DNA of 38,819 nt from Microcystis aeruginosa Ma_SC_T_19800800_S464 (GTDB lineage Bacteria > Cyanobacteriota > Cyanobacteriia > Cyanobacteriales > Microcystaceae). The stretch spans positions 1 through 38,819 of the forward strand of contig SFBL01000074.1 in NCBI GenBank assembly GCA_007095785.1. The letters run 5' to 3'. A program made the translations under genes and the position numbers. Within the stretch, counting starts at the first letter, position 1. Every line of letters starts with the position of its first letter. Positions 14,218 to 38,767 of this stretch are shown piece by piece. The notes under the pieces are model-generated. The model ran no database searches. It was not told the origin of the DNA and worked only from the letters and a program-made list of their open reading frames with translations.

Positions 14218-15201
14218 TTAGGCAATCACCTGAATATTGCCCGCACCGAGGGTCGCTGCGCCAGAGCCAGCAATGTTTGCGATTGTAACCAGACCACCAG
14301 AATTAGCCAGATCTGAGTCAAACGATAAAACACCGCCACTGTAGATAATTTTGGCAGTGCCATTTTCAGTTGTCGAGAATAGGGTAGGAGTTAAAGTACC
14401 GCCAATGGTAGTCAGTCCGCCGAAACCACTGGAAGAAAGTACGATAGCATCTGCACCCTGACCAAAATCCGTGATGCTGTCACCGCCTTCGTTGGGATTG
14501 TTGTAAACAAAAAGGTCAGGATCATTACCACCAGTGAGGGTATCGTTTCCTAAGCCGCCGATTAGGGTATCGTTACCACCGCGACCTAATAGGATATCGT
14601 TACCATTGCCACCGATTAGGGAATCCTGTTGCGTACCACCATCTAGGGAATCGTTTCCGTTGCCACCATCTAGGACATCCATTCCCGCGCCACCATTTAG
14701 GGTATCGTTACCATCTCCACCCATTAGGGTATCCGCTACACTGGCACCAGTTAGGCTATCGTTGAACGCACTACCTGTGATGAAATAGGAATCGGTGGCG
14801 AGGAGATTCCAGATACCATTTCTTTGCACACCCGACGCTTTCGTGTTAACAATACCGCCGCTTAGTTGGTAAGTGCCAGCAGACCCACCTCTAACAAAGG
14901 TAAAGCTATTTGCTGGCAGGGAAAATGACTGAGAAAAGCTTCCACCGTACTGGGAAAGGGTTGCGCTATCAGCAGGGCCGAAGTTGGTTATTCTCCAAGC
15001 TGTAAGGCTTTCGTTGGGGCCCAAGGGTAAAAGGCCCTGGGAAGTGAGATTATCCTGGGTAATGGTAATGCCTGGTCCTGATAAATAAATGGGGATATCA
15101 TAGGTGTTCAGGAAAGAGGCAACTGACGTAGTCACAGCAGGATTGAAACTAGCACCAGAGGGACCGGAGAGGCCAGCGAATGATATAGTTACAGTGGGCA
15201 T
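14218..15201 (-). CDS. RTX-like calcium-binding repeat protein
   Basis: A 327-residue protein when started at the ATG at 15201 (MPTVTISFAGLSG); the open frame reaches 15285, but that extension is not protein-like. About residues 150-225 hold eight tandem nonapeptides of the GGxGxDxLx type, which bind calcium in a parallel beta-roll; the fourth (GGTQQDSL) is degenerate. The C-terminal DLFVYNNPNEGGDSITDFG segment resembles the end of type I-secreted RTX proteins. No signal peptide and no ABC/HlyD/TolC secretion genes are nearby. The N-terminal 130 residues match no enzyme I recognise. A role as a surface or extracellular protein is inference. Confidence 0.8.
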   Translation of the reverse strand: MPTVTISFAGLSGPSGASFNPAVTTSVASFLNTYDIPIYLSGPGITITQDNLTSQGLLPLGPNESLTAWRITNFGPADSATLSQYGGSFSQSFSLPANSFTFVRGGSAGTYQLSGGIVNTKASGVQRNGIWNLLATDSYFITGSAFNDSLTGASVADTLMGGDGNDTLNGGAGMDVLDGGNGNDSLDGGTQQDSLIGGNGNDILLGRGGNDTLIGGLGNDTLTGGNDPDLFVYNNPNEGGDSITDFGQGADAIVLSSSGFGGLTTIGGTLTPTLFSTTENGTAKIIYSGGVLSFDSDLANSGGLVTIANIAGSGAATLGAGNIQVIA

Positions 15202-15354
15202 AGTTTTTTCTTTGAATGATATGTTTGAACTTGAAGAGTTTGACAGTCTTCCCAAGATTATTATATACCACGAAAAAAAATGCAACCTTGTTTTCTCGAT
15301 TTGTTTCCTGAATTGTTGCTAATGTTCGTTATTTTACATCTGGTCAAGTTTTTA

Positions 15355-17356: not shown

Positions 17357-17601
17357 TCCTAATTTTTGTCCTAGAAGTTGATATGACGGCAATTTGTGGC
17401 AGCTCAGAGGGAATCTATGAGTCTTTTACTGGTTTGCTAAGGCTGTCTCACTATAACTGATAGTTTCTCATCAGTCCCTCATCTATTGTCAGAGAAAGAG
17501 GTGCGCTTGGCAAGGGAATCACCGAATTTATTTGCCACTCTTGCAGAAAATCTTCGGTTTTTACCTAATCAGATATCAGATACCTGTAGCTGGTGATAGA
17601 G
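17357..17601. other. Divergent intergenic region of desD and the CHAT-receptor operon
   Basis: This 245-base region must hold promoters in both directions. I see no consensus -35/-10 pair. A short inverted motif (GATATCAGATACC) lies at 17571-17583, just before the operon start. Confidence 0.35.
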
Positions 17602-18750
17602 ATGAGCGTTAGGTACTTTTATACTACTATTAAAGCGATTGAAGGCGATCGAGTTTTCTGGTGCGAAGTGCCACAATTAAGAAAATCGATCAATGCGATC
17701 GCTGGAAAGGTGGCAAATGATCAAGCGGTATATCTTGATCTGTGGCAATGGTTACAGAATGATCCTAATAACCAATTAGTCAAGTCTCATTGGATGGTTT
17801 TTTTACAATATCGCTCCTGTATGGTAACTCAAAGGGTCTATCAAAATGTTGGCCATCGGATCGATGCTGATTATGAAACCCTATTCTACTATTTGCTGAA
17901 TTTGCTGGCCACGGCAATCACCAACAATCCTAGCAATTTTTACGGCAACTTTCAGGATCAAAAGACCAAACTGGGATTTTTTCGCTTAATTTTAGAAAAA
18001 TGGACAGATAAAAAATTAAGAAATACTCTCTATAATTTCCTGCGAGGAGAGTATAAAACTATCGGCAGGACTAATCTCGGTATAGTCAGTCTTTTTAGTG
18101 CGAATAAAATTCAAAAAGTTTTACGAGCATCGGGTATATTTACCGAGAATCACCTGCTAATATTTAACTGTTTTCGAGAGGTAAAAAAAGCTTCTCTTAG
18201 ATCATTGGATAAGTGGCAAGAGGAGGATTGGCAACAAGTAATCGATCGCTTGCAGCAGTTACAACCGCAAGTTATTTTCACCATTGAGGAAGTGCAAGCA
18301 AAACTCAATCAAATAGGGGAGATAATGCGTAATCACATCGATCCTCCTTGCTCTAAATTTGAGCCGACTAATTATGACCATGATAGCAATTACTTTTGGG
18401 AAAATCTCCCCAGCAAGAGGCCAAGTCAAGACTTACTACAACAGCAAGAAATCCAGGAAGATATTAAGAAGTTACTGATCACTCAAGAGGAGGAAGTTAA
18501 ACAGATTGTCTATTGTTACTATCATCAAAAGATGACACAGGTACAGATCGCTAATCGATTGGGAGTTCACTCATCTACTATTAGTCGAGAAATAACCCAA
18601 TTATGTAAAAAAATTTATCAGCTACTCTGTGCAAGGGAAGGCAAAGATTGTCCTAAGTTATTAAATGAGATTAAATTACAATCTCTGCAAAAACAAGAGA
18701 TCGATGCTTATCTAGAATATTTTTGTCAGTCCTACTTAACTCAAAACTAA
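17602..18750 (+). CDS. Sigma-70 region 4-like DNA-binding protein
   Basis: A 382-residue protein (ATG at 17602; a GTG three codons upstream is possible). The N-terminal 270 residues are helical, without a recognisable sigma region 2. The C-terminal segment (about 290-345 of the longer frame) reads as a sigma region 4/LuxR-type helix-turn-helix: KMTQVQIANRLGVHSSTISR followed by a basic helix. Proteins of this type, annotated as sigma-70-like, typically precede DUF1822 genes in cyanobacteria, as here (16-base spacer). It probably regulates transcription of its own operon. Whether it can recruit RNA polymerase core is unclear, because region 2 is not obvious. It has no close relation to the primary sigma factors. 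Confidence 0.7.
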   Translation: MSVRYFYTTIKAIEGDRVFWCEVPQLRKSINAIAGKVANDQAVYLDLWQWLQNDPNNQLVKSHWMVFLQYRSCMVTQRVYQNVGHRIDADYETLFYYLLNLLATAITNNPSNFYGNFQDQKTKLGFFRLILEKWTDKKLRNTLYNFLRGEYKTIGRTNLGIVSLFSANKIQKVLRASGIFTENHLLIFNCFREVKKASLRSLDKWQEEDWQQVIDRLQQLQPQVIFTIEEVQAKLNQIGEIMRNHIDPPCSKFEPTNYDHDSNYFWENLPSKRPSQDLLQQQEIQEDIKKLLITQEEEVKQIVYCYYHQKMTQVQIANRLGVHSSTISREITQLCKKIYQLLCAREGKDCPKLLNEIKLQSLQKQEIDAYLEYFCQSYLTQN

Positions 18751-18766
18751 TCTGTCAGGAGATACC

Positions 18767-20131
18767 ATGAAAGTCAACCTCGATATTTTGCAACAAATTA
18801 ACCCGAAATCTCTTTGGCTAACTTTTTCGGAAACAGAGATTAAACAAGCTCGATCGATTCTCGGTCAATATTCTAATCAAACCGCCAAAAATCAGGCTTT
18901 GATTAATTACTTAGTCCAAATATGCTTAAGCAATTGGCTGAAAAACAATCTTGATTCTTCTCTTAAAATAATACCTAAAAACCATCAGTATCTTTGGGAG
19001 TTTATTAACGGGGTTACTTGGCAAATTCAAGATAAAAAAGTGACTACTATTCCCAGTCAAGCCATTGACATTGAGGGATTGACAATAGAGCAAGAATGGG
19101 TTGATATTCCCGATTTAGCGGCGGATTTTTATCTAGGAGTGCAGGTAGATTTAGCAGAAAAATTCCTCAATATCTGGGGTTTTATATCCAGAAAAGATGT
19201 TAAAAATCTCGCAGAATACGATCCAATTTACCATCAATATTATTTGGACAGTGAGCAAATAATTGATAATTTAGATATTCTTTGGCAGAGTTTGTTAGAG
19301 GGAAAGAGTGAAAAAGGAAAACTGGAATCCTTAGCAAACTTATCGCCAGCAATAGCAGAAAATTTAATTAAAAAGTTAGGTCAAGTTTCACCCTATTCTC
19401 CGAGATTAGATATTAGTTGTCAGCAGTGGTTAGCTTTGTTGAATAATCAGCAATGGCGAGAAAAACTTTATCAGCAGCGTCTAGAAATAATCCCCACTAA
19501 ACTTAGTCAATGGTTGCAGGGAATTATTACAGAGAAATGGCAGGAAATCCTTAACACCCTCGACAATTATCGTCCAATTAATCCGGGGTTTTTGTTGGCT
19601 GCTGAAAAAATCAGCAGCCGAGAATCTCCGACAGATATTCAGGGAGAAATTAGACAACTGTATGCTAGTCAAAAAGAGGTGGAATTTTGGGAACATTTAA
19701 CCCCAGAGGAAGCTTTAGCAAAACTACAACATCAAACCCAAGATGAAACTATTCGCTGGCAAGCAGCCGAATATCTCTGGAATATCGATCCTCATTATCC
19801 CAATGCTGCTATCCGTAAAATGCTCGATGTGGGTAGTCAATTAATGGGACATAAAATCGCTTTAATGGTGGGAGTTTTATCGACCAGTGACCAGAGAATT
19901 GCTGTCTTAATTCGTGCCTATGCCATGGAAAATTTTGCCAAGCTACCCCCCGGTTTATCTTTGCAAATTAGCGATGAAATAGGCCAATTAATCCCCAGTT
20001 TAGAGGCAATAGCAAGGGAGAAACCCTTAGATAGCTATCTGCAACTTTATTTTCTAGCTGATGCCGATGATCGCTTTAATGTTAACCTAAGTTTAGGGGA
20101 TAGTAGCATTACCGAACACTTTAGGATTTAA
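18767..20131 (+). CDS. DUF1822 family protein
   Basis: A 454-residue soluble protein. The N-terminal half has the DUF1822 pattern: an early helix ending in NYLVQICLSNWLKNNL, then EWVDIPDLAADFYLGVQVDL, a LNIWGFISRKDVKNLAEYD strand-turn, and YYLDSEQIIDNLDILW. The C-terminal 200 residues are helical with a HEAT-like segment (TIRWQAAEYLWNIDPHYPNA) and a DUF1822-typical end. The function of the family is unknown; its constant position after sigma-like genes suggests it works with, or restrains, that factor. It starts 16 bases after the upstream gene and ends 32 bases before the CHAT-receptor gene. AGGAG precedes the start. Confidence 0.8.
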   Translation: MKVNLDILQQINPKSLWLTFSETEIKQARSILGQYSNQTAKNQALINYLVQICLSNWLKNNLDSSLKIIPKNHQYLWEFINGVTWQIQDKKVTTIPSQAIDIEGLTIEQEWVDIPDLAADFYLGVQVDLAEKFLNIWGFISRKDVKNLAEYDPIYHQYYLDSEQIIDNLDILWQSLLEGKSEKGKLESLANLSPAIAENLIKKLGQVSPYSPRLDISCQQWLALLNNQQWREKLYQQRLEIIPTKLSQWLQGIITEKWQEILNTLDNYRPINPGFLLAAEKISSRESPTDIQGEIRQLYASQKEVEFWEHLTPEEALAKLQHQTQDETIRWQAAEYLWNIDPHYPNAAIRKMLDVGSQLMGHKIALMVGVLSTSDQRIAVLIRAYAMENFAKLPPGLSLQISDEIGQLIPSLEAIAREKPLDSYLQLYFLADADDRFNVNLSLGDSSITEHFRI

Positions 20132-20163
20132 TAGAGATAGCAGAAAATGTCAAGGGTAAAGAC

Positions 20164-22773
20164 ATGAGCAGAGTTGTGATTCTGAAAATTGGGGAGGGAA
20201 ATTTTGCAACGGGATTTTCCGTCACTCTAGAAATTCGTGACAATAATCGCTTGATAGCGCCTTTTGCTGAGGGGAAATTAGTCCCTAACCTTGACATTGC
20301 CGACGCTTTGCAAAATTATCGTCGAGCTTATTATCATTGGGTAAAAAGTCAACCCAGTTTAGGAATTACCGTTCCCCATAGTATGATCACCAATGCAGCG
20401 GTGGGTGATCCTAGAGACAACCTGAGAAAAGCTACTCAAACTTTAAAAGATAGCCTAAATGAATGGCTAAATTCTAGTTATCTGAGTTCGATACAAAATC
20501 ATATTTTGTTCCATATAGGTACTGAGTCAGAAGTCAGATTTTTTATCCAAACTACCCACTTTGATTTACAACAAATTCCCTGGGAGTCTTGGAATTTTTT
20601 ACACGAATGGTGTCCCGATATGGAAATTGCTCTTACTATCCAGAGAAATCCCCCGATAATTAACCTGACTTCTCCAATTAAGGTTTTAGTAATTTTGGGC
20701 AATATTGACATCGGAAATGAGCATACTTCCGTGTGTTTATCCAGTTTGCAAACGGTACTAGGAAATCCAGATAAGATTTTTATGCAAATCTTAAGTCCTA
20801 GTTCAGAAGTTCCTCTTTCAACGAAAAGTATTCACAATGAGTTGATCGAAAATCAATGGGATATTGTAGTTTATTTAGGTCATAGTCAAACCAGTAGCGA
20901 CGGTCACGATGGAGTTTTTATCATTGATAATGATACGGCTTTATCTCCTGAACATAACTTAAGGAATTCCCTAGAAATAGCTGTTAAAAAAGGATTAAAA
21001 CTTGTTATCTGTAACTCCTGCGATGGGTTAGGTATTGGTCGTCAGTTGGCTAAGATCAGAGTACCCCATATTATTGTTATGAAAGAACCGATAGCGGTGC
21101 GGGTTGCTTTGAGATTTCTAGAAGTTTTTCTTCCCAATTTTCTTGGACATAAATCCCTACAAGAATCCTTAACAAGCGCTCGACAAGAATTAAGATTACA
21201 TGAATTTGAGGTGGATGCTGCTAGTTCTTCTTTGCTGCCTCGTTTGATAGAAAATCCTGAAGAACCACCGTTAATTTTACCTTTAACCCCTGAAAATACG
21301 GAGGAAAATCACCAAAATAATGATGAGCAAAGTTGGCCTTCACGTCTATCTAGTCGCTGGAAACAAGCTCTGTTATTTATTTTAAGTCTTCTGGTAACTT
21401 TATCAGTTTTATATGGGGGAGGAGTATTTTCCGATGATGCTAGTAAATACCCAGAAATTAGCTTAGGTGAAGAAATATTATTCAAGACAAACCGACAAGA
21501 TAACAGTCTTGAACGGGGAAGACAAGCTTTTAAAAACCAAGAATATAAACAAGCAATTAAGCTTTTTAAACAATCCCTTGATCGCTTGCCCAATAATCCA
21601 GAGATTCGAATCTATTATAATAACGCTCGTGCGGCCTATCAAGACAGAAATCCCTTAAAAATTGCCACCAGTGTTCCTCTTGGTAATAATCCAGAAATTG
21701 CCCAAGAAATTTTACGAGGTATTGCTTTATTCCAACAGGAGTTAAACGATGAACAGGCCAAAAACCCCGATTTTCACTTTCTACAGGTAGTGGTCGCTAA
21801 TGATAATAATAGCGCCGTAGATGCCGAAGATCGAGCCGAAAAATTTGTTAAAGATCCGTCAATTATAGCAGTGGTTGGTCATAATGCTTCTGCTGCTAGT
21901 GAAGCGGCCAAAGATATCTATGTACCAGGGAAAATTGTTGCCATATCCCCTACGAGCTTTTCCCCGAAAATCTCTGGCAATGACTATATATATAAAATGG
22001 TTCCCGATCTGGAAACTTTTGCCACAACCTTAAGTGAATATATCCGTCAACAAACTGACAAGCTAATTATCCAAAACCCCACTAATTTAATTTGTTACGA
22101 CAATCGCTCTGGAGATAATTATAACTTTGCTAAAAAATATAGAAACATTCTTCTCGGTCAGCAGTTTCAAAAATTTGTTAAAGATGAAGATTTTGACTGC
22201 AATATCGAACCAAAAATTCATTTAGGTGAACAAGAAATTTATCAAAAAATTGCTCAATATCAAGTAAATATTCTCATGGTTGCTCCCTATGTTAATGATC
22301 TGAAAAGAGCCGTCAGTATCTTTAAGCAACGTCCCGCAGAACAGTTAAACTTAGTAACTTTAGGTTCCCCCACTTTTCAAAGTTATCTCACCCTTGCAGA
22401 AGGTAAACAAGGAGTAGAAAATTTAGTTATCACCGTGCCTTGGTATGATCTCAAACAAGATAATTATATCCAGAGTTTTTGGCAAAATAAGATCAATGTT
22501 TGGCGCACTCCCATGTCCTACGATGCGACCAAAGTTATCCTCACCGCTTTGCGAAAGTTATACCAACAAGGACAAAAATTCGATCGAGAATTATTAAATC
22601 AAGTTTTAAGAAACGATTTTTCTATCGAAGGAATGACTGGCACTGTTAGATTCGATGAGAATGGTGTCCGCAACATGAATAATAATCCTGATGATCGCCG
22701 CTACTTGATTCTACAGGTCAAAAATGGTCGATTTGTCCCCCTCGCTCCCATTAAATCTGCCGGTCCACTCTAA
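20164..22773 (+). CDS. CHAT caspase-like protease fused to a periplasmic ligand-binding domain
   Basis: An 869-residue transmembrane protein. Residues 1-370 are cytoplasmic, with a C-terminal CHAT (caspase HetF-associated) protease domain. Its catalytic pair is visible as H240 in VVYLGHSQ and C286 in CNSCDGLG, followed by the IRVPHIIVMKEPI strand typical of cyanobacterial CHAT effectors. A single membrane helix follows (about 400-420). A short TPR-like pair comes next (about 445-490: QAFKNQEYKQAIKLFKQSLD). A type-I periplasmic solute-binding domain (about 500-869; LivK/Peripla_BP_6-like, with VVGHNASAASEAAKDIY) ends the protein. The layout is that of a receptor whose outer domain could switch an inner protease. 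Ligand and protein substrate are unknown. The outer half is paralogous to the gene at 23612. Confidence 0.85.
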   Translation: MSRVVILKIGEGNFATGFSVTLEIRDNNRLIAPFAEGKLVPNLDIADALQNYRRAYYHWVKSQPSLGITVPHSMITNAAVGDPRDNLRKATQTLKDSLNEWLNSSYLSSIQNHILFHIGTESEVRFFIQTTHFDLQQIPWESWNFLHEWCPDMEIALTIQRNPPIINLTSPIKVLVILGNIDIGNEHTSVCLSSLQTVLGNPDKIFMQILSPSSEVPLSTKSIHNELIENQWDIVVYLGHSQTSSDGHDGVFIIDNDTALSPEHNLRNSLEIAVKKGLKLVICNSCDGLGIGRQLAKIRVPHIIVMKEPIAVRVALRFLEVFLPNFLGHKSLQESLTSARQELRLHEFEVDAASSSLLPRLIENPEEPPLILPLTPENTEENHQNNDEQSWPSRLSSRWKQALLFILSLLVTLSVLYGGGVFSDDASKYPEISLGEEILFKTNRQDNSLERGRQAFKNQEYKQAIKLFKQSLDRLPNNPEIRIYYNNARAAYQDRNPLKIATSVPLGNNPEIAQEILRGIALFQQELNDEQAKNPDFHFLQVVVANDNNSAVDAEDRAEKFVKDPSIIAVVGHNASAASEAAKDIYVPGKIVAISPTSFSPKISGNDYIYKMVPDLETFATTLSEYIRQQTDKLIIQNPTNLICYDNRSGDNYNFAKKYRNILLGQQFQKFVKDEDFDCNIEPKIHLGEQEIYQKIAQYQVNILMVAPYVNDLKRAVSIFKQRPAEQLNLVTLGSPTFQSYLTLAEGKQGVENLVITVPWYDLKQDNYIQSFWQNKINVWRTPMSYDATKVILTALRKLYQQGQKFDRELLNQVLRNDFSIEGMTGTVRFDENGVRNMNNNPDDRRYLILQVKNGRFVPLAPIKSAGPL

Positions 22774-22880
22774 ACCTTCCTATCCTTGTCAAGACTTTTT
22801 ACAAAACTTAACCTTATCCACTGCATCAAAGTTGGCCATCACTCCTAATTAACAGGTAATACCTCTAGGAGACAAACGGC

Positions 22881-23600
22881 ATGAAATTGTTAAAAAAATT
22901 AACCCCAAAGGCCTTGATTTTTTGGCTGATCGGTGATAAGGCAGGAAATTCTCTCGTTGCGATCTGGAATTGGTTGTGGGGTATTCCCATCGAATCCGGC
23001 GGAAAAATTGCCGTAGAATCGGCCAGAGAATCCCTAGAATCGATGCAAAAATCCCTAGCGGAATTAACAGAATCGGTGGCGAAAGTAGTAGCGGCCCAGC
23101 AATCTGCTCAAGCACAATACGAGGCAAAAAAACAGGAACACACAAACTACTTGCAGCAGGCTGTCACCGCTCAAAAAAAAGGTCTTCAAGAAGCGGCAAG
23201 ACTGGCTATGGTTAAGGTTATCTCCCTAGAAAAAATTCTACCCGCCATGAAAGATCGGGTTGATAATGCCGAAAAAGTGGTCATTGCTGCTAAGGAAAAA
23301 CTTCGCAAAGAGCAGGAAAAAATCGAGCATTATAAGTTAGAAATGAGCAACTTAAAAGCGATTAGTTCCATGAATGAGGCTTTAGGTAAAATAAACGAAT
23401 TTGATAGTAGTCTCAACCTCAATACCTCCCGCGATCGCTTTGAGGATGCCAATGGAGCGATTAACGACCGTTATCGAAAAGAAAACGTCTATAGTGAATT
23501 AAGCGAGAACTATAGCGAGAAATTAGCTCAAGAAATCGATTTCTTAAGCCTTGATGACGAAATTAACCGCCGTTTAGCCGAATTCAATCAGCAAAGTTAA
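22881..23600 (+). CDS. PspA/Vipp1 (ESCRT-III)-like coiled-coil protein
   Basis: A 239-residue, almost wholly helical protein. A hydrophobic/amphipathic start (ALIFWLIGDKAGNSLVAIWN) may touch the membrane. A long coiled coil (about 45-165) is followed by MNEALGKINEFDSSLNLNTS and a RFEDANGAINDRY helix, resembling the alpha3-alpha5 part of PspA/IM30 proteins. Those proteins polymerise on stressed membranes and remodel or seal them. I rate the match as distant, so a generic coiled-coil protein is the alternative. The start has an AGGAG 13 bases upstream. The gene follows the CHAT receptor by 107 bases and the second receptor starts 11 bases after its stop. Confidence 0.6.
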   Translation: MKLLKKLTPKALIFWLIGDKAGNSLVAIWNWLWGIPIESGGKIAVESARESLESMQKSLAELTESVAKVVAAQQSAQAQYEAKKQEHTNYLQQAVTAQKKGLQEAARLAMVKVISLEKILPAMKDRVDNAEKVVIAAKEKLRKEQEKIEHYKLEMSNLKAISSMNEALGKINEFDSSLNLNTSRDRFEDANGAINDRYRKENVYSELSENYSEKLAQEIDFLSLDDEINRRLAEFNQQS

Positions 23601-23611
23601 GGAGTAAAGCG

Positions 23612-24961
23612 ATGACAAAGACTGGCAAAAAAGCGAGCTTACCGCCAATTTTCTATGTTTTACTGGGGTTGATCGGCTGGTTTCTTTTTCCCCAAATATT
23701 GGCAATATTTGCCCCAAAAGCCGATAATAATCCCCGCATGAGTTACGGCAATCATCTCCTGATCAAAACTAATTCTAACACCACCAAAGAATCAGCGATC
23801 GCTGCCATTGCTCAAGGTGATCACCAAGAAGCAGAGCAACTCCTGCAAAAATCCCTCGCTCAACGTCCCAACGATCCCGAAAGCGTAATTTATCTAAGCA
23901 ACCTGCAAACTGGCTCAAATCCCTTTAAAATCGCCGTTGTTGTCCCAGCGACAACTAATCCCAACGTCGCTCAAGAAATATTGCGAGGAGTCGCCAGCGC
24001 ACAAACCCAGATCAATCAACAGGGAGGGATCAACGGCAGAAAACTGATGGTTATCGTGGTTAATGACGATAATCAGCCGCAGATATCGAAAGAGGTAGCC
24101 AGTGAATTAGTCAAAAATCCCGATATTATCGCTGTTATCGGTCATAATGCCTCCGATGCCAGTTTAGCCGCCGCTCCCATCTACGAAAAAGGCGGTTTGG
24201 TGATGATTTCTCCCACCTCCCTGGCTAATAATCTCTCCGGTGCGGGAAATTATATCTTTCGTCTGGTGGCTTCTAACGGCAAAATTACGGAAAAATTAGC
24301 AAATTACATAGTAAATACTGCTAAAGTCCAGAAAATTGCTTTTTGCTACGATTCTCAAGCTCCCGATAATATTTCCTTTAAAGATGAGTTGATGGCTAAT
24401 GTGGCGAAAAAAGGCGGTCAAATTGTGCCGATTGTCTGTGATCTGAGTGTACCCAATTTTAAGGCCGATCAAGCCCTTAATCAGGCGATTTCTGGGGGTG
24501 CTAACGGTCTATTTGTCGTCGCTCATGTTGATCGTCTCGATCCCGTTTTTGAGGTTATTCGCTCCAATCGTCAGCGTTTGCCTCTGTTTAGTAGTCCCAC
24601 CCTCTACAATATTCGCACCCTCGAAGATGGCGGCAAAAACGCCCAAGGTTTAACCCTTGCCGCACCCTGGCACCCCTCGGTTAACCAGACTTTTGCCAAT
24701 CTTATGCAGGAACAGTGGCGCGGTCCAGTTAGTTGGCGCACAGCTACCAGTTTTGACGCTACACGGGTGATTATTGCCGGTTTAAGGGAAAATCCTCAAC
24801 GTCAGGGCCTACAATCCAGGCTGCGTTCCGCCAATTTTCATCAAACAGGGGCCACCGGAAAAATTAGCTTTGATCCTAATACTGGCGATCGCATTGGTCA
24901 ACCAGTGTTAATTCAAGTGCGCTCGACTCCCGACGGTGAGCAGTTTGTCCCTTTACCTTAA
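23612..24961 (+). CDS. Membrane-anchored periplasmic ligand-binding protein, paralogue of the CHAT receptor ectodomain
   Basis: A 449-residue protein: short basic cytoplasmic start, one transmembrane helix (about 11-32), a TPR-like segment (about 60-100: IAQGDHQEAEQLLQKSLAQRP), then a LivK/Peripla_BP_6-like solute-binding domain to the end (IAVIGHNASDASLAAAPIYE; QEILRGVASAQTQINQQGGI). The region from about residue 45 onward aligns motif by motif with residues 430-869 of the CHAT receptor (LLIKTN/ILFKTN, NPFKIA/NPLKIA, QEILRG, VIGHNAS/VVGHNAS). No protease domain is present. No ABC permease or ATPase is nearby, so transport is unlikely. A partner, co-receptor or decoy for the CHAT receptor is the inferred role. 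Confidence 0.8.
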   Translation: MTKTGKKASLPPIFYVLLGLIGWFLFPQILAIFAPKADNNPRMSYGNHLLIKTNSNTTKESAIAAIAQGDHQEAEQLLQKSLAQRPNDPESVIYLSNLQTGSNPFKIAVVVPATTNPNVAQEILRGVASAQTQINQQGGINGRKLMVIVVNDDNQPQISKEVASELVKNPDIIAVIGHNASDASLAAAPIYEKGGLVMISPTSLANNLSGAGNYIFRLVASNGKITEKLANYIVNTAKVQKIAFCYDSQAPDNISFKDELMANVAKKGGQIVPIVCDLSVPNFKADQALNQAISGGANGLFVVAHVDRLDPVFEVIRSNRQRLPLFSSPTLYNIRTLEDGGKNAQGLTLAAPWHPSVNQTFANLMQEQWRGPVSWRTATSFDATRVIIAGLRENPQRQGLQSRLRSANFHQTGATGKISFDPNTGDRIGQPVLIQVRSTPDGEQFVPLP

Positions 24962-26346: not shown

Positions 26347-29013
26347 ATGACAAGTAACTACGGCGCGGAACAGATACAAGTTCTCGAAGGGTTAGAACCA
26401 GTCAGGAAGCGGCCGGGGATGTATATCGGTACGACTGGGCCGCGGGGACTACATCATTTAGTCTATGAAGTGGTGGACAACTCGATCGATGAGGCCCTAG
26501 CGGGTTACTGTACTCATATCGAAGTGGATATCAAGGCCGATGGTTCCGTCAGCGTCACCGACGATGGCCGGGGTATTCCCACCGATGTTCACCCCACCAC
26601 GGGTAAATCTGCCCTCGAAACCGTTCTCACTATACTTCATGCCGGCGGTAAATTTGGCAGTGGTGGCTATAAAGTGTCGGGAGGGTTACACGGAGTCGGG
26701 ATTTCCGTCGTTAATGCTCTTTCCGCATGGGTCGATGTGACAGTCTGGCGCGATCATAAAGTACATATCCAACGCTACGAAAGAGGTATCCCCGTCACAG
26801 AATTGGTCAGCAGTCCTAGTCAAGAGGAAAAAACGGGAACTAGGGTTAATTTCCTGCCAGACACCGAAATTTTTAGCCAAGGCATCGAATTTGATTACAG
26901 TACCCTCTCCGGACGTTTACGAGAACTAGCCTACTTAAATGCGGGTGTTAAAATCACCTTTAGCGATTACCGTCCCGAAGAACCCCACATCGAAACCTAT
27001 TGTTATGAGGGGGGTATTAAAGAATACGTCGCCTATATGTGTCGGGAAAAAGAAACTCTGCACAAAGATATTATCTATGTATCGGGGGAAAAGAACGGAA
27101 TTAATATCGAAGTGGCGTTTCAGTGGTGTATAGATGCCTATAGCGACAATATTCTCGGTTTTGCTAATAATATCCGCACCATTGACGGGGGAACTCATCT
27201 AGAAGGATTAAAAGCAGTCCTGACTCGTACTTTAAATAATGTTGCTCGTAAACGCAATAAAATTAAAGAAAACGAGCCTAATCTAGCGGGGGAAAACGTC
27301 CGTGAGGGTTTAACCGCCGTTATTTCCGTAAAAGTCCCCGAACCGGAATTTGAGGGACAAACCAAGACCAAATTGGGTAACACCGAAGTCCGGGGTATTG
27401 TTGATTCCCTGGTGGGGGAAACTCTCAACGAATACCTAGAACAAAATCCCCAAGTGGCCGACACGATTATCGAAAAAGCAGTACAAGCGTACAAAGCGGC
27501 GGAAGCAGCCCGACGGGCCCGGGACTTAGTACGACGGAAATCGGTCTTGGAATCCTCACCTTTACCGGGTAAATTGGCTGATTGTAGCGAAAGAGACCCA
27601 GAAAAGTCGGAAATTTACATCGTTGAAGGTGACAGCGCCGGCGGCTGTTTTCATGGTGATACAGAAATCGCCCTTGTCGATGGACGCAACCTCAGTTTTA
27701 AACAGCTAGTGACCGAACAAGCCCAAGGAAAGGAACATTTTTGTTATACCATTCGTGACAATGGCACGATCGGGGTTGAACGAGTTATTAATGCCCGCAT
27801 CACCAAAAAAGACGCAGAAGTAATTAAAATTACTCTCGATCATGGTGAAGCGATTATTTGTACTCCTGACCATCTTTTCCTGTTAAGAGATGGTAGCTAT
27901 AAACCTGCTGCGGCTTTAACTCCAGAAGATGCTTTAATGCCTTTGTATCGGAAATTGTCCGCTCTTCGTGACCCCGGAATCACCATTAACGGTTATGAAA
28001 TGGTCTGGAATCCCGCTTCCGATTCTTGGTTGTTCACTCATGCGATCGCTGATTGGTATAATCGTTGGCAGGGAATTAACACGATCAAGAAAACTTACTA
28101 TCAAAAAACCCTAGCGACCTTAAAACAAATTGAGATCGATCGAGGTTATATTGATTTGGAAGCTTATCAAAAATATCGGCTTCAGACGCGGGATAAATCA
28201 ATATTGCGATTTGATTCTTTCTGCGATCGCTACTTTGATGGTGATAAAAATAAAGCCTTAGAAGCGGTGGCTAATTACAATCATCGAGTCGTGGCGATCG
28301 AGCGATTAGAGACAAGATTCGATGTCTATGATATCGAGGTTCCTCATACTCATAACTTTGCCCTTGCCTCCGGTGTTTTCGTCCATAACAGTGCCAAACA
28401 GGGGCGCGATCGTCGTTTTCAAGCGATTCTACCTCTGCGGGGAAAAATCCTCAATATCGAAAAAACCGATGATGCCAAAATCTACAAAAATACGGAAATT
28501 CAATCCTTAATTACAGCCCTCGGTTTAGGAATTAAAGGAGAAGATTTCGACCCCTCACAATTGCGCTATCATCGCATTGTTTTAATGACTGATGCTGATG
28601 TGGATGGCGCACACATCCGAACTTTGTTGTTAACTTTCTTCTATCGTTATCAGAAGAATTTAATTGACCAAGGTTATGTATATATCGCCTGTCCTCCTCT
28701 CTATAAATTGGAACGCGGTAAAAATCATTCCTACTGCTATAGCGATCGAGAATTACAGCAAAAGATAGCAGAATTTCCCTCTAATGCTAACTACACAATC
28801 CAACGTTTTAAAGGGTTAGGAGAAATGATGCCCCAACAACTTTGGGATACTACCATGAATCCCGAAACTCGCACTTTAAAACGGGTGGAAATCGAAGACG
28901 CAGCCAAAGCAGAGGAATTATTTACCATTCTTATGGGCGATCGAGTTGCCCCCCGGCGAGAATTTATCGAAACCCACGGACCGCGTTTAAATCTTACCGA
29001 TTTGGACATTTAA
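26347..29013 (+). CDS. gyrB: DNA gyrase subunit B with an in-frame intein
   Basis: An 888-codon precursor. The first 433 residues are the GHKL ATPase ([32 protein letters not shown]) and transducer domains, up to the TOPRIM motif VEGDSAGG. Residues 434-681 are an intein. The sequence resumes at S682 with [20 protein letters not shown] and ends with the TOPRIM and C-terminal parts ([33 protein letters not shown]). After splicing, GyrB would be 640 residues, normal for cyanobacteria. With GyrA it introduces negative supercoils using ATP. The intein interrupts the catalytic TOPRIM glutamate loop, so unspliced protein should be inactive. The ATG at 26347 gives the usual [20 protein letters not shown] start. 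Confidence 0.97.
27646..28389 (+). other. GyrB mini-intein (248 residues)
   Basis: Block A starts at C434 ([13 protein letters not shown]). Block B is [10 protein letters not shown] with the TxxH motif. Block F is [18 protein letters not shown] and block G is VFVHN followed by extein Ser. All splicing residues (first Cys, block B His, penultimate His, terminal Asn, +1 Ser) are present. The insertion point equals that of the Synechocystis GyrB intein, which I recall as about 435 residues. Between B and F, segments that flank an HNH endonuclease in related inteins ([17 protein letters not shown] and [20 protein letters not shown]) are joined directly, without the HNH core. Splicing should work; homing should not. 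Confidence 0.9.
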
Positions 29014-37987: not shown

Positions 37988-38767
37988 TTACTCTGCTTCT
38001 CCAACTAATATAAATCCGGCCCAGTTAACGGGTTCAGGGTGTTGTTTCATAATAGTTAACATTGCTTGTTGTAAAGCTTGGGCTTTATTGGGTTTAGTTT
38101 TAAGATTGTTGTAAAATTCGATCATTAAATCAGAAGTTGCTGCATCGGGAACAGACCATAAAGAAACAACTACACTTTTGACTCCTGCTGCCATAAAAGG
38201 TCTTGCTATACCTACAACTCCATCACTGGTAATCTCTCCTAATCCTGTATCACAAGCACTTAAAACAACTAAATTAGTGCGTAAGTGCATCCCATAAATT
38301 TCTCCACTCAAAAAGCCAGATTGTTCGTTAGCAGGGGCTAGAGCGATAGCTTGATCATTACCATGAGTTGCTAAGTGAATAATATCAGCATTAGGCATTT
38401 GTCCGGTGACATTTTGTATATTCGCTTGTTCACCAATTAGGGGTTGAGTTCCTAACATTTGAGAAATGGCTTCTGCTTCTTTTTCTGTTCCGGGTAAAGC
38501 GGGAAGTTGTTGACCATTTTCCATTTTAGGCATGGTAGGATTTCCAACAATTAGAGCATTTGAGGTAAGATTTAGAGTATTGTTACTAGATTCTTGATCA
38601 ATTAGTTGTAGGGTTTGAATAGAGGGAGAAATCTGGATTGGATGCTTTTCTATGAGATATTTTCCATCAGCAGTTTTTAAAGCAGCAAAAGGAACTCTAA
38701 AGCCCACATTCAGCAGATTAAATTGAAAAAAAGTTATTTTAGGTAAAGTGGATTTTAAAATGACCAA
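37988..38767 (-). pseudogene. CHAT-domain protease, 5' part lost to an IS insertion
   Basis: The open frame (259 codons) carries the C-terminal CHAT domain of a TPR-CHAT type protein: RVPFAALK, ADIIHLATHG with the catalytic His, VVLSACDTGLGEITSDGVVG with the catalytic Cys, and VKSVVVSLWSVPDAATSDLM. Homology seems to begin near residue 23 (about 38701). Upstream codons are unlike protein, there is no ATG, and a stop codon is in frame at about 38785. The + strand from about 38704 reads instead as the end and start of an insertion sequence. The catalytic pair is intact but the N-terminal part, usually TPRs, is gone. This is a different CHAT subfamily from the receptor at 20164. Confidence 0.75.

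Follow-up and report, generated by a model that had tools for sequence, protein, structure and literature searches.

Do five adjoining genes of a cyanobacterial genome make up one signalling unit, and what would the caspase-like protease among them act on? The question is raised by positions 17602-24961 of a 38,819-nt stretch of DNA from Microcystis aeruginosa Ma_SC_T_19800800_S464 (contig SFBL01000074.1; the window means this whole stretch), where a first-pass annotation had proposed an undescribed operon for a sigma region 4-like protein, a DUF1822 protein, a transmembrane (TM) CHAT protease with a solute-binding ectodomain, a PspA-like protein and a second receptor. Five open reading frames (ORFs) were confirmed there on the + strand, with the proposed intergenic gaps of 16, 32, 107 and 11 bases, and the domain calls hold in Pfam. 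The stable unit is formed by the first three genes; the PspA-like gene and the periplasmic-binding protein (PBP) gene next to it are an optional pair. We read the three-gene core as a PBP-receptor variant of the predicted EACC2-caspase/sigma/DUF1822 system, in which a ligand-gated TM protease would free or activate a sigma factor through DUF1822, by a logic like that of the CASP (Craspase) system of type III-E CRISPR. We give this reading a probability of roughly 0.45.

One genome per species (84,980 species) was scanned with an alignment of nine full-length receptors as the query. The scan yielded 544 stretches, 517 of them encoding relatives; the top 80 were retained and correspond to 78 loci (L091-L168), six from Microcystis. 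Because only the best-scoring 80 were kept, the sampled loci represent the part of the family most like the receptor of the window. Counting from the matched receptor gene, the sigma-DUF1822-receptor trio was linked to it in 64 of the 78 loci. The sigma-DUF1822 pair was directly upstream on the same strand in 50 loci (including L104, where DUF1822 is split into two ORFs), behind one tandem sister receptor placed between DUF1822 and the matched receptor in six (L097, L098, L099, L115, L120 and L131) and convergent in eight. Outside Microcystis, the trio was present in 58 of 72 loci from many cyanobacterial genera; under a rule not anchored on the matched gene, 34 of 39 organism labels outside Microcystis had at least one trio locus. 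Median gaps were 6 bases (sigma-DUF1822) and 39.5 bases (DUF1822-CHAT). The first-pass annotation had expected the five-gene order to recur across genomes and had held that solitary receptors or randomly varying neighbours would speak against a functional unit. It is the order of the first three genes that recurs, and these receptors are not usually alone; an operon of signalling parts is thus upheld for three genes, not for five.

The six loci with a tandem sister carry two to four CHAT-PBP receptors behind a single sigma-DUF1822 pair, as if several inputs fed one output. The convergent arrangement was found in Calothrix-like genomes (L136, L137, L142, L144, L145, L157, L163 and L166), with a second sigma-DUF1822-CHAT set next door in L137, L142, L144, L145 and L157. 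On a Planktothrix plasmid, the PGAP annotation gives the order PspA/IM30, ABC substrate-binding, hypothetical, sigma-70, DUF1822 and ABC substrate-binding; in Pfam, the receptor adjoining DUF1822 has CHAT and Peripla_BP_6, PspA_IM30 falls under the cut-off and the sigma protein is unmatched.

Within Microcystis, the three-gene core was present in 11 of 12 genomes, and all five genes stood in window order in 10 of 12 (the window, L071-L076, L233, L235 and L236), so that the arrangement is more than chance. The window's DUF1822 has an orthologue in 11 of the 12 genomes, G235 being without it. One strain, represented by two loci with an identical receptor (L234 and L096), has kept the first three genes; a deletion took the C-terminal end of the receptor, the PspA-like gene and the second PBP gene. 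A recombinant receptor was ruled out in this strain, the ectodomain being the receptor's own, shortened. In the same strain, Cys, not Gly, precedes the dyad histidine.

The receptor-protease (869 aa; 20164-22773, + strand) consists of an N-terminal module, a CHAT domain with the dyad His240 and Cys286, one TM segment at about residues 399-423, TPR and a LivJ-like periplasmic-binding ectodomain. In Pfam, CHAT is borderline at 24.2 bits (cut-off 24.0), Peripla_BP_6 is matched at 6.2e-11 and ANF_receptor is also matched; the CHAT domain of a relative (L098) scores 58 bits. All 37 readable homologues retain the dyad (seven are from Microcystis; a 38th aligned row is a fragment that does not include the region), and the proposed CHAT protease thus stands with its catalytic dyad intact. 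The TM helix, predicted from hydropathy only, divides the protease side from the TPR and the ectodomain. Over the ectodomain, the receptor profile matches 4mlc (2.2e-34) and LivJ structures (about 1e-20); since the ectodomain is LivJ-like, the ligand is, by family, plausibly amino-acid-like. Residues 1 to about 372 match proteins with differing C-termini, including a CHASE2 protein of the same genome. The 869-aa protein therefore has the constant N-terminal module, the caspase-like domain and the variable C-terminus that characterize the EACC2-caspase system.

The sigma-like gene (382 aa; 17602-18750, + strand; alternative GTG start at 17593) belongs to a long subtype. Pfam recognises region 4 alone (Sigma70_r4, 1e-5, 25.4 bits, cut-off 24.1). 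This family was found in nine of 14 long-subtype members (four from Microcystis, including the window), and region 2 was absent from the Pfam families of all 14. The profile matches SigF (1.5e-7) and FliA (7e-5). When an AlphaFold2 model (15 sequences; predicted local distance difference test score [pLDDT] 77; predicted TM-score [pTM] 0.52) was compared with the PDB, the best 50 of 267 matches (E up to 10) were all sigma-factor or RNA-polymerase entries by title, mostly over about 300 columns; the best E was 1.2e-3, none being at or below 1e-3 among the matches listed, and whole-chain TM-scores were about 0.2. The SigF region-4 domain fitted the model with a TM-score of 0.82 over its own length. 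The model points, short of proof, to a whole, diverged sigma-70-family factor; the earlier call was right about region 4 and probably too narrow for the protein. Across the loci, 54 sigma ORFs were of a short subtype and 18 of the long one. The short subtype is weakly ECF-like (extracytoplasmic function), with region 2 in three of 32 (Pfam) and a match to the RpoE/SigE chain 2q1z at E 0.019. Profile comparison of the subtypes gave 23.9% probability over the helix-turn-helix (HTH) region only, so common descent is not established.

DUF1822 (454 aa; 18767-20131, + strand; PF08852, 2.3e-65) is the proposed partner of the sigma factor and the proposed substrate of the protease. Its neighbours were counted at 80 places hand-picked from the top-scoring list, a sample biased to high scores and with several places from some genomes, using the best-scoring DUF1822 per locus (two shorter than 250 aa). 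A sigma gene lay directly upstream on the same strand in 66 of 80, and a CHAT gene of the receptor type lay downstream in 38 of 80 (both, 29; sigma only, 37; CHAT only, nine; neither, five); the sigma factor is therefore the most constant partner of DUF1822. Ten scanned neighbours comprised two TPR-CHAT proteins, one trypsin-like, one STAND-WD40, one chloride channel, two oxidoreductases, one DUF4870 and two family-less proteins. Other protease families near DUF1822 were trypsin-like (L300), Rce1/CAAX-type beyond a CHAT-like gene (L231) and trypsin-TPR beyond CHAT (L229). The genome of the window has six DUF1822 matches across five loci, the window and four others: a sigma-like, DUF1822 and CHAT-CHASE2 set followed by the trypsin-TPR protein (L229); a short sigma and DUF1822 with no directly adjoining CHAT and a 681-aa CHAT-type ORF about 2 kb on, on the opposite strand (L230); DUF1822, a CHAT-like protein (20.3 bits, under the Pfam cut-off) and the Rce1/CAAX-type protease (L231); and a short sigma and DUF1822 with a 1183-aa CHAT protein about 0.8 kb on (L232). 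A distant family of the phylum contributed more than 100 small genomes with a single weak DUF1822 match each (E about 1e-4 to 1e-17).

The structure model of DUF1822 (22 sequences; pLDDT 78; pTM 0.55) comprises a mixed N-terminal half, a linker of low confidence (residues 253-286), helices and a beta-rich C-terminal domain. Searches of the PDB gave no match at E ≤ 0.001 and no Csx30 among the best 50 of 624 weaker matches, and the profile search gave two weak, unrelated matches; a known fold was set aside on these searches, and a weak match to the anti-sigma sensor domain 7cg8 (E 0.064) was not used. Kaur et al. (PMC8195603) call DUF1822 a TPR protein, a point that the present model leaves undecided. 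Among 121 nonredundant DUF1822 proteins, Arg-Ser/Gly occurs 5-40 residues after a near-invariant Trp (120/121) in 91; shuffling (500 replicates) averaged 42 and never exceeded 57, and seven control windows of equal length gave 9-27 of 121. Seven patterns were tried on these related sequences (R[SG], R, [FAYM]R[SGQ], K[SG], [DE][SG], L[SG] and R[^SG]), and R[SG] was chosen after looking, so its significance is somewhat inflated. We regard the linker arginine as a candidate cleavage site, a lead and no more. As a CHAT-specific site, the looser R[S/G] was rejected for failing to separate CHAT-adjacent from other DUF1822 proteins, and the strict LAFR motif (8 of 75 CHAT-adjacent, 0 of 43 with no CHAT neighbour and 0 of 3 convergent) was rejected as too rare.

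Tree distances were compared over 39 short-sigma trios, with shared species history retained in the distances. Correlations were 0.89 for sigma-DUF1822, 0.85 for DUF1822-CHAT, 0.69 for sigma-CHAT and 0.73 for CHAT-ectodomain, which are parts of one polypeptide; DUF1822-CHAT exceeded CHAT-ectodomain in 400 of 400 resamples. Simple distances gave 0.93, 0.94, 0.88 and 0.78 for the same pairs in the same order. Partial correlations were 0.80 (sigma-DUF1822), 0.62 (DUF1822-CHAT) and 0.42 (CHAT-ectodomain) along the chain, and -0.24 (sigma-CHAT), 0.08 (DUF1822-ectodomain) and -0.06 (sigma-ectodomain) off it. Distances thus correlate along the chain sigma-DUF1822-CHAT-ectodomain, and CHAT is closer to DUF1822 than to its own ectodomain. 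Over the whole set, the ectodomain is less in step with CHAT than DUF1822 is, as expected of a swappable sensor; within the smaller DUF1822 cluster (10 loci), CHAT-ectodomain (0.94) nearly equals DUF1822-CHAT (0.97).

The last two genes behave as a module of their own. The PspA/IM30-like protein (239 aa; 22881-23600, + strand; PF04012, PspA_IM30, 1.2e-11) is followed by a protease-free TPR and periplasmic-binding protein (449 aa; 23612-24961, + strand; PF13458, Peripla_BP_6, 4.4e-34), LivJ-like and anchored by an N-terminal TM segment at about residues 8-35, which may serve as an accessory co-receptor or decoy. It is 35% identical to residues 420-834 of the receptor, as the ectodomain paralogue that had been proposed. 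No TM segment over the hydropathy threshold was found in the sigma-like, DUF1822 or PspA-like proteins. PspA-like matches at E ≤ 1e-10 occurred in 38 of 386 genomes, and a solute-binding-protein gene followed in 28 of 30 homologous loci, of the Peripla_BP_6 type in 10 (seven from Microcystis) and of the unrelated PBP_like_2 type in 18, an assignment confirmed by Pfam in 4 of the 18. These 18 loci with a PstS-type gene (L178-L184, L186-L190 and L192-L197) had no CHAT gene in 1.5-kb flanks; in L186, a DUF1822-sigma pair adjoins the two genes on the opposite strand. Outside Microcystis, the PspA-like gene was found in 8 of 72 receptor loci, with an adjoining PBP gene in seven (L098, L104, L107, L112, L120, L131 and L132), and only Iningainema (L107), with split ORFs, had all five genes in window order with nothing between. 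Long-sigma receptor loci outside Microcystis (L097, L098, L099, L107, L120, L131 and L135) had a PspA-like gene in five of seven; in the other two, the sequence stops soon after the receptors.

The PspA-like gene is a separable accessory, and the single five-gene module first envisaged resolves into a conserved trio and a second, optional module. Whether the pair merely adjoins the trio by chance, as a separate unit, is another matter. Its occurrence with no receptor-protease in the 1.5-kb flanks, with two unrelated PBP folds, and the survival of the first three genes in a Microcystis genome that lost the pair favour such a unit. Against it, 7 of the 72 non-Microcystis receptor loci also contain the pair, on one side of the trio or the other, and so does the Planktothrix plasmid. 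We lean away from a chance neighbourhood while granting it considerable weight; it would be compatible with the best explanation for the trio.

The 107-base gap ahead of the PspA-like gene (22774-22880) is kept in an alignment of 10 Microcystis genomes, has AGGAG before the ATG and is a possible internal promoter. In Microcystis, the sequences ahead of the sigma gene and ahead of the PspA-like gene are both conserved; a shared promoter motif was rejected, as it amounted to a TTGTCA hexamer found by eye and attainable by chance, and a general promoter scan (33 promoter-like sites vs. 18.8 expected) was not used.

How might the core work? Lying beyond the single TM helix and outside the cytoplasm, the LivJ-like ectodomain would bind a small molecule, plausibly amino-acid-like, and binding would activate the cytoplasmic CHAT protease. 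The protease would then target DUF1822, with a cut in the flexible linker as the likeliest mode of action. DUF1822, encoded beside the sigma factor, would regulate it, and cutting would release or activate the sigma factor and alter transcription. The PspA-like and second PBP proteins, where present, may form a membrane-side pair that tunes sensing. A more specific version, in which an outside ligand switches on the caspase-like domain, DUF1822 is cut at the conserved linker arginine and the sigma factor is freed, would make DUF1822/sigma a general cyanobacterial output module for many sensors (PBP, CHASE2, TPR-CHAT, trypsin and STAND) and would cast PspA-like proteins as partners of solute-binding receptors at the membrane; taken as a whole, we consider this version doubtful.

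Several observations weigh against a ligand-gated protease acting on the sigma factor through DUF1822. Cleavage, binding and activation are steps that we infer. The window's CHAT score is barely above the cut-off. The trio was missing from 14 of the 78 receptors, eight of them with at least 3 kb of upstream sequence; among the 14, DUF1822 stands elsewhere in the locus in two (L129 and L159) and is absent from twelve, of which six have upstream sequence shorter than 3 kb and six have some 10 kb. As many as 37 of 80 DUF1822 genes have a sigma gene and no such CHAT next door. The sigma-DUF1822 partial correlation is 0.62 in one DUF1822 cluster (26 loci) and only 0.09 in the other (10 loci), and the order of the correlation chain is that of the genes, so that linkage and recombination might account for it. 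The structure and profile searches revealed neither an anti-sigma nor a Csx30-like fold in DUF1822. Linker R[SG] is present in 39 of 43 DUF1822 proteins that have no CHAT neighbour vs. 51 of 75 that have one (convergent, 1 of 3), and the DUF1822 of the window itself carries Arg285-Glu, not Arg-Ser/Gly.

Alternatively, DUF1822 may be no anti-sigma but an uncut scaffold or co-activator that joins receptor and sigma factor, the caspase-like domain cutting itself or another target. Autopeptidase activation was proposed by Kaur et al. (PMC8195603), DUF1822 often has a sigma gene and no adjoining CHAT (the 37 of 80 above), and the helical middle part of its model would fit a scaffold. The low-confidence, motif-bearing linker and the several protease families near DUF1822 suit a substrate better, and we think a scaffold unlikely. 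A further possibility is an operon for amino-acid sensing or related to transport, with the PBP proteins working for an ABC transporter and CHAT surviving as a relic. Both ectodomains are LivJ-like and annotation names these proteins ABC substrate-binding; yet there is no permease or ATPase among the five genes (Pfam), the PBP domain is covalently joined to CHAT and the dyad is kept in every readable homologue, which makes a transport operon very improbable.

The first-pass annotation had itself suggested regulated cell death or stress as a possibility, and a related view is that of a cell-death or defence module in which CHAT, once damage or infection is sensed, cuts proteins of the host. Bacterial defence systems other than CASP also use CHAT proteases. 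A CHAT protease acts in CASP itself (PMC10028731), cyanobacterial caspase homologues have been discussed with programmed cell death, and caspase activity in oxidatively stressed Microcystis aeruginosa is cited in PMC3501461. Among the five proteins, no toxic effector or pore was found (Pfam, NCBIfam and PADLOC), and DUF1822 pairs most constantly with a sigma factor; cell death is therefore without support. The defence reading was set aside as well: with PADLOC, three of the five proteins were unmatched and the other two were matched only weakly, in HTH and coiled-coil parts; a tblastn search of the receptor against 50,697 phage records gave no match; and of 12 Microcystis genomes, 11 have the core and 10 the five-gene set, which in our view is unlike a defence island. 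We hold a death or defence module to be improbable.

If the ligand-to-sigma reading is right, cyanobacterial caspase-like proteases would be receptors for gene control, not death, with several copies per genome. It would give an experimental handle on the role of cyanobacterial caspase homologues and a natural ligand-to-protease-to-sigma switch.

Elsewhere in the window, gyrB (26347-29013) has an intein (Intein_splicing, 1.5e-18; the window copy alone was scanned). The ORF at this place measures 888 aa in the window and L091, 640 aa in L092, L094 and L096 and 1075 aa in L093, which suggests that gyrB inteins were gained and lost among Microcystis strains. At 14218-15285 (- strand) lies a protein with four scored RTX calcium-binding repeat stretches (7.2e-20); other strains have ORFs of varying length at this place. 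The strongest CHAT match of the genome (2.8e-61) is at the end of the window (37988-38767, - strand; ORF of about 260 aa).

Among known systems, regulated proteolysis by RseA/DegS/sigma-E combines an extracytoplasmic signal, a protease and a sigma factor, as proposed here; it differs in that here a single protein would be both sensor and protease, and no TM segment is predicted for the proposed regulator. The partners known from the phage-shock-protein response are PspB, PspC, PspF and Lia, and none was found among the five genes, the part of the window scanned for them; here the partner is a solute-binding protein. The PspA_IM30 domain is common to both, and among the listed passages of the survey PMC11237479 that contain the terms looked up, none reports the pairing of PspA with a solute-binding protein. 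No experiment on these proteins was found in the literature searched, which left out most subscription papers and all bioRxiv preprints, and within it the papers that pair 'CHAT protease' with 'sigma factor' are on CRISPR. In CASP (PMC10028731, 2022), a CHAT protease cuts Csx30, relieving the inhibition of CASP-sigma. A CHAT protease, a sigma factor and a third protein are common to CASP and the trio; CASP differs in its RNA trigger via Cas7-11 and its TPR-CHAT protease, and Csx30 shows no detectable likeness to DUF1822 in the searches run. No Cas7-11 match was found among the five genes by Pfam, NCBIfam or PADLOC, no search for CRISPR arrays having been made. With no likeness detected between Csx30 and DUF1822, we suggest that the trio may operate along the lines of CASP and do not count it as a CASP system.

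For cyanobacteria, caspase homologues joined to ANF-receptor or CHASE2 domains were listed in 2010 (PMC2853523) and 2012 (PMC3501461). Like the receptor of the window, which also matches ANF_receptor, these fusions join a caspase homologue to an extracellular ligand-binding domain, and for the CHASE2 protein PMC3501461 infers an outside receptor and a cytoplasmic protease. The likeness drawn here is one of domain make-up. DUF1822 is mentioned in neither paper; the relevant passages of PMC3501461 report sigma factors from the metacaspase operons of Myxococcus and further lineages, and not alongside the ANF-receptor or CHASE2 fusions. The closest counterpart is the EACC2-caspase/ECF-sigma/DUF1822 system of Kaur et al. 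(2021; PMC8195603), put forward as a prediction only. Because of it, the trio core is not undescribed, as had been supposed: sigma factor, DUF1822 and a caspase-like protease with a variable C-terminus were already predicted together. Both have a constant N-terminal module and caspase domain with a variable sensor C-terminus (CHASE2 and others in the prediction), and both have a sigma factor and DUF1822 as neighbours. The EACC2 section of that paper names 'several small-molecule-binding domains', the PBP ectodomain not among them, and does not include the PspA-like/PBP pair, both of which are present in the window; its sigma factor is of the ECF type, whereas that of the window is of the long subtype, modelled as a whole sigma-70-family factor. 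With this sensor and these accessory parts, the locus looks like a new variant of the predicted system.

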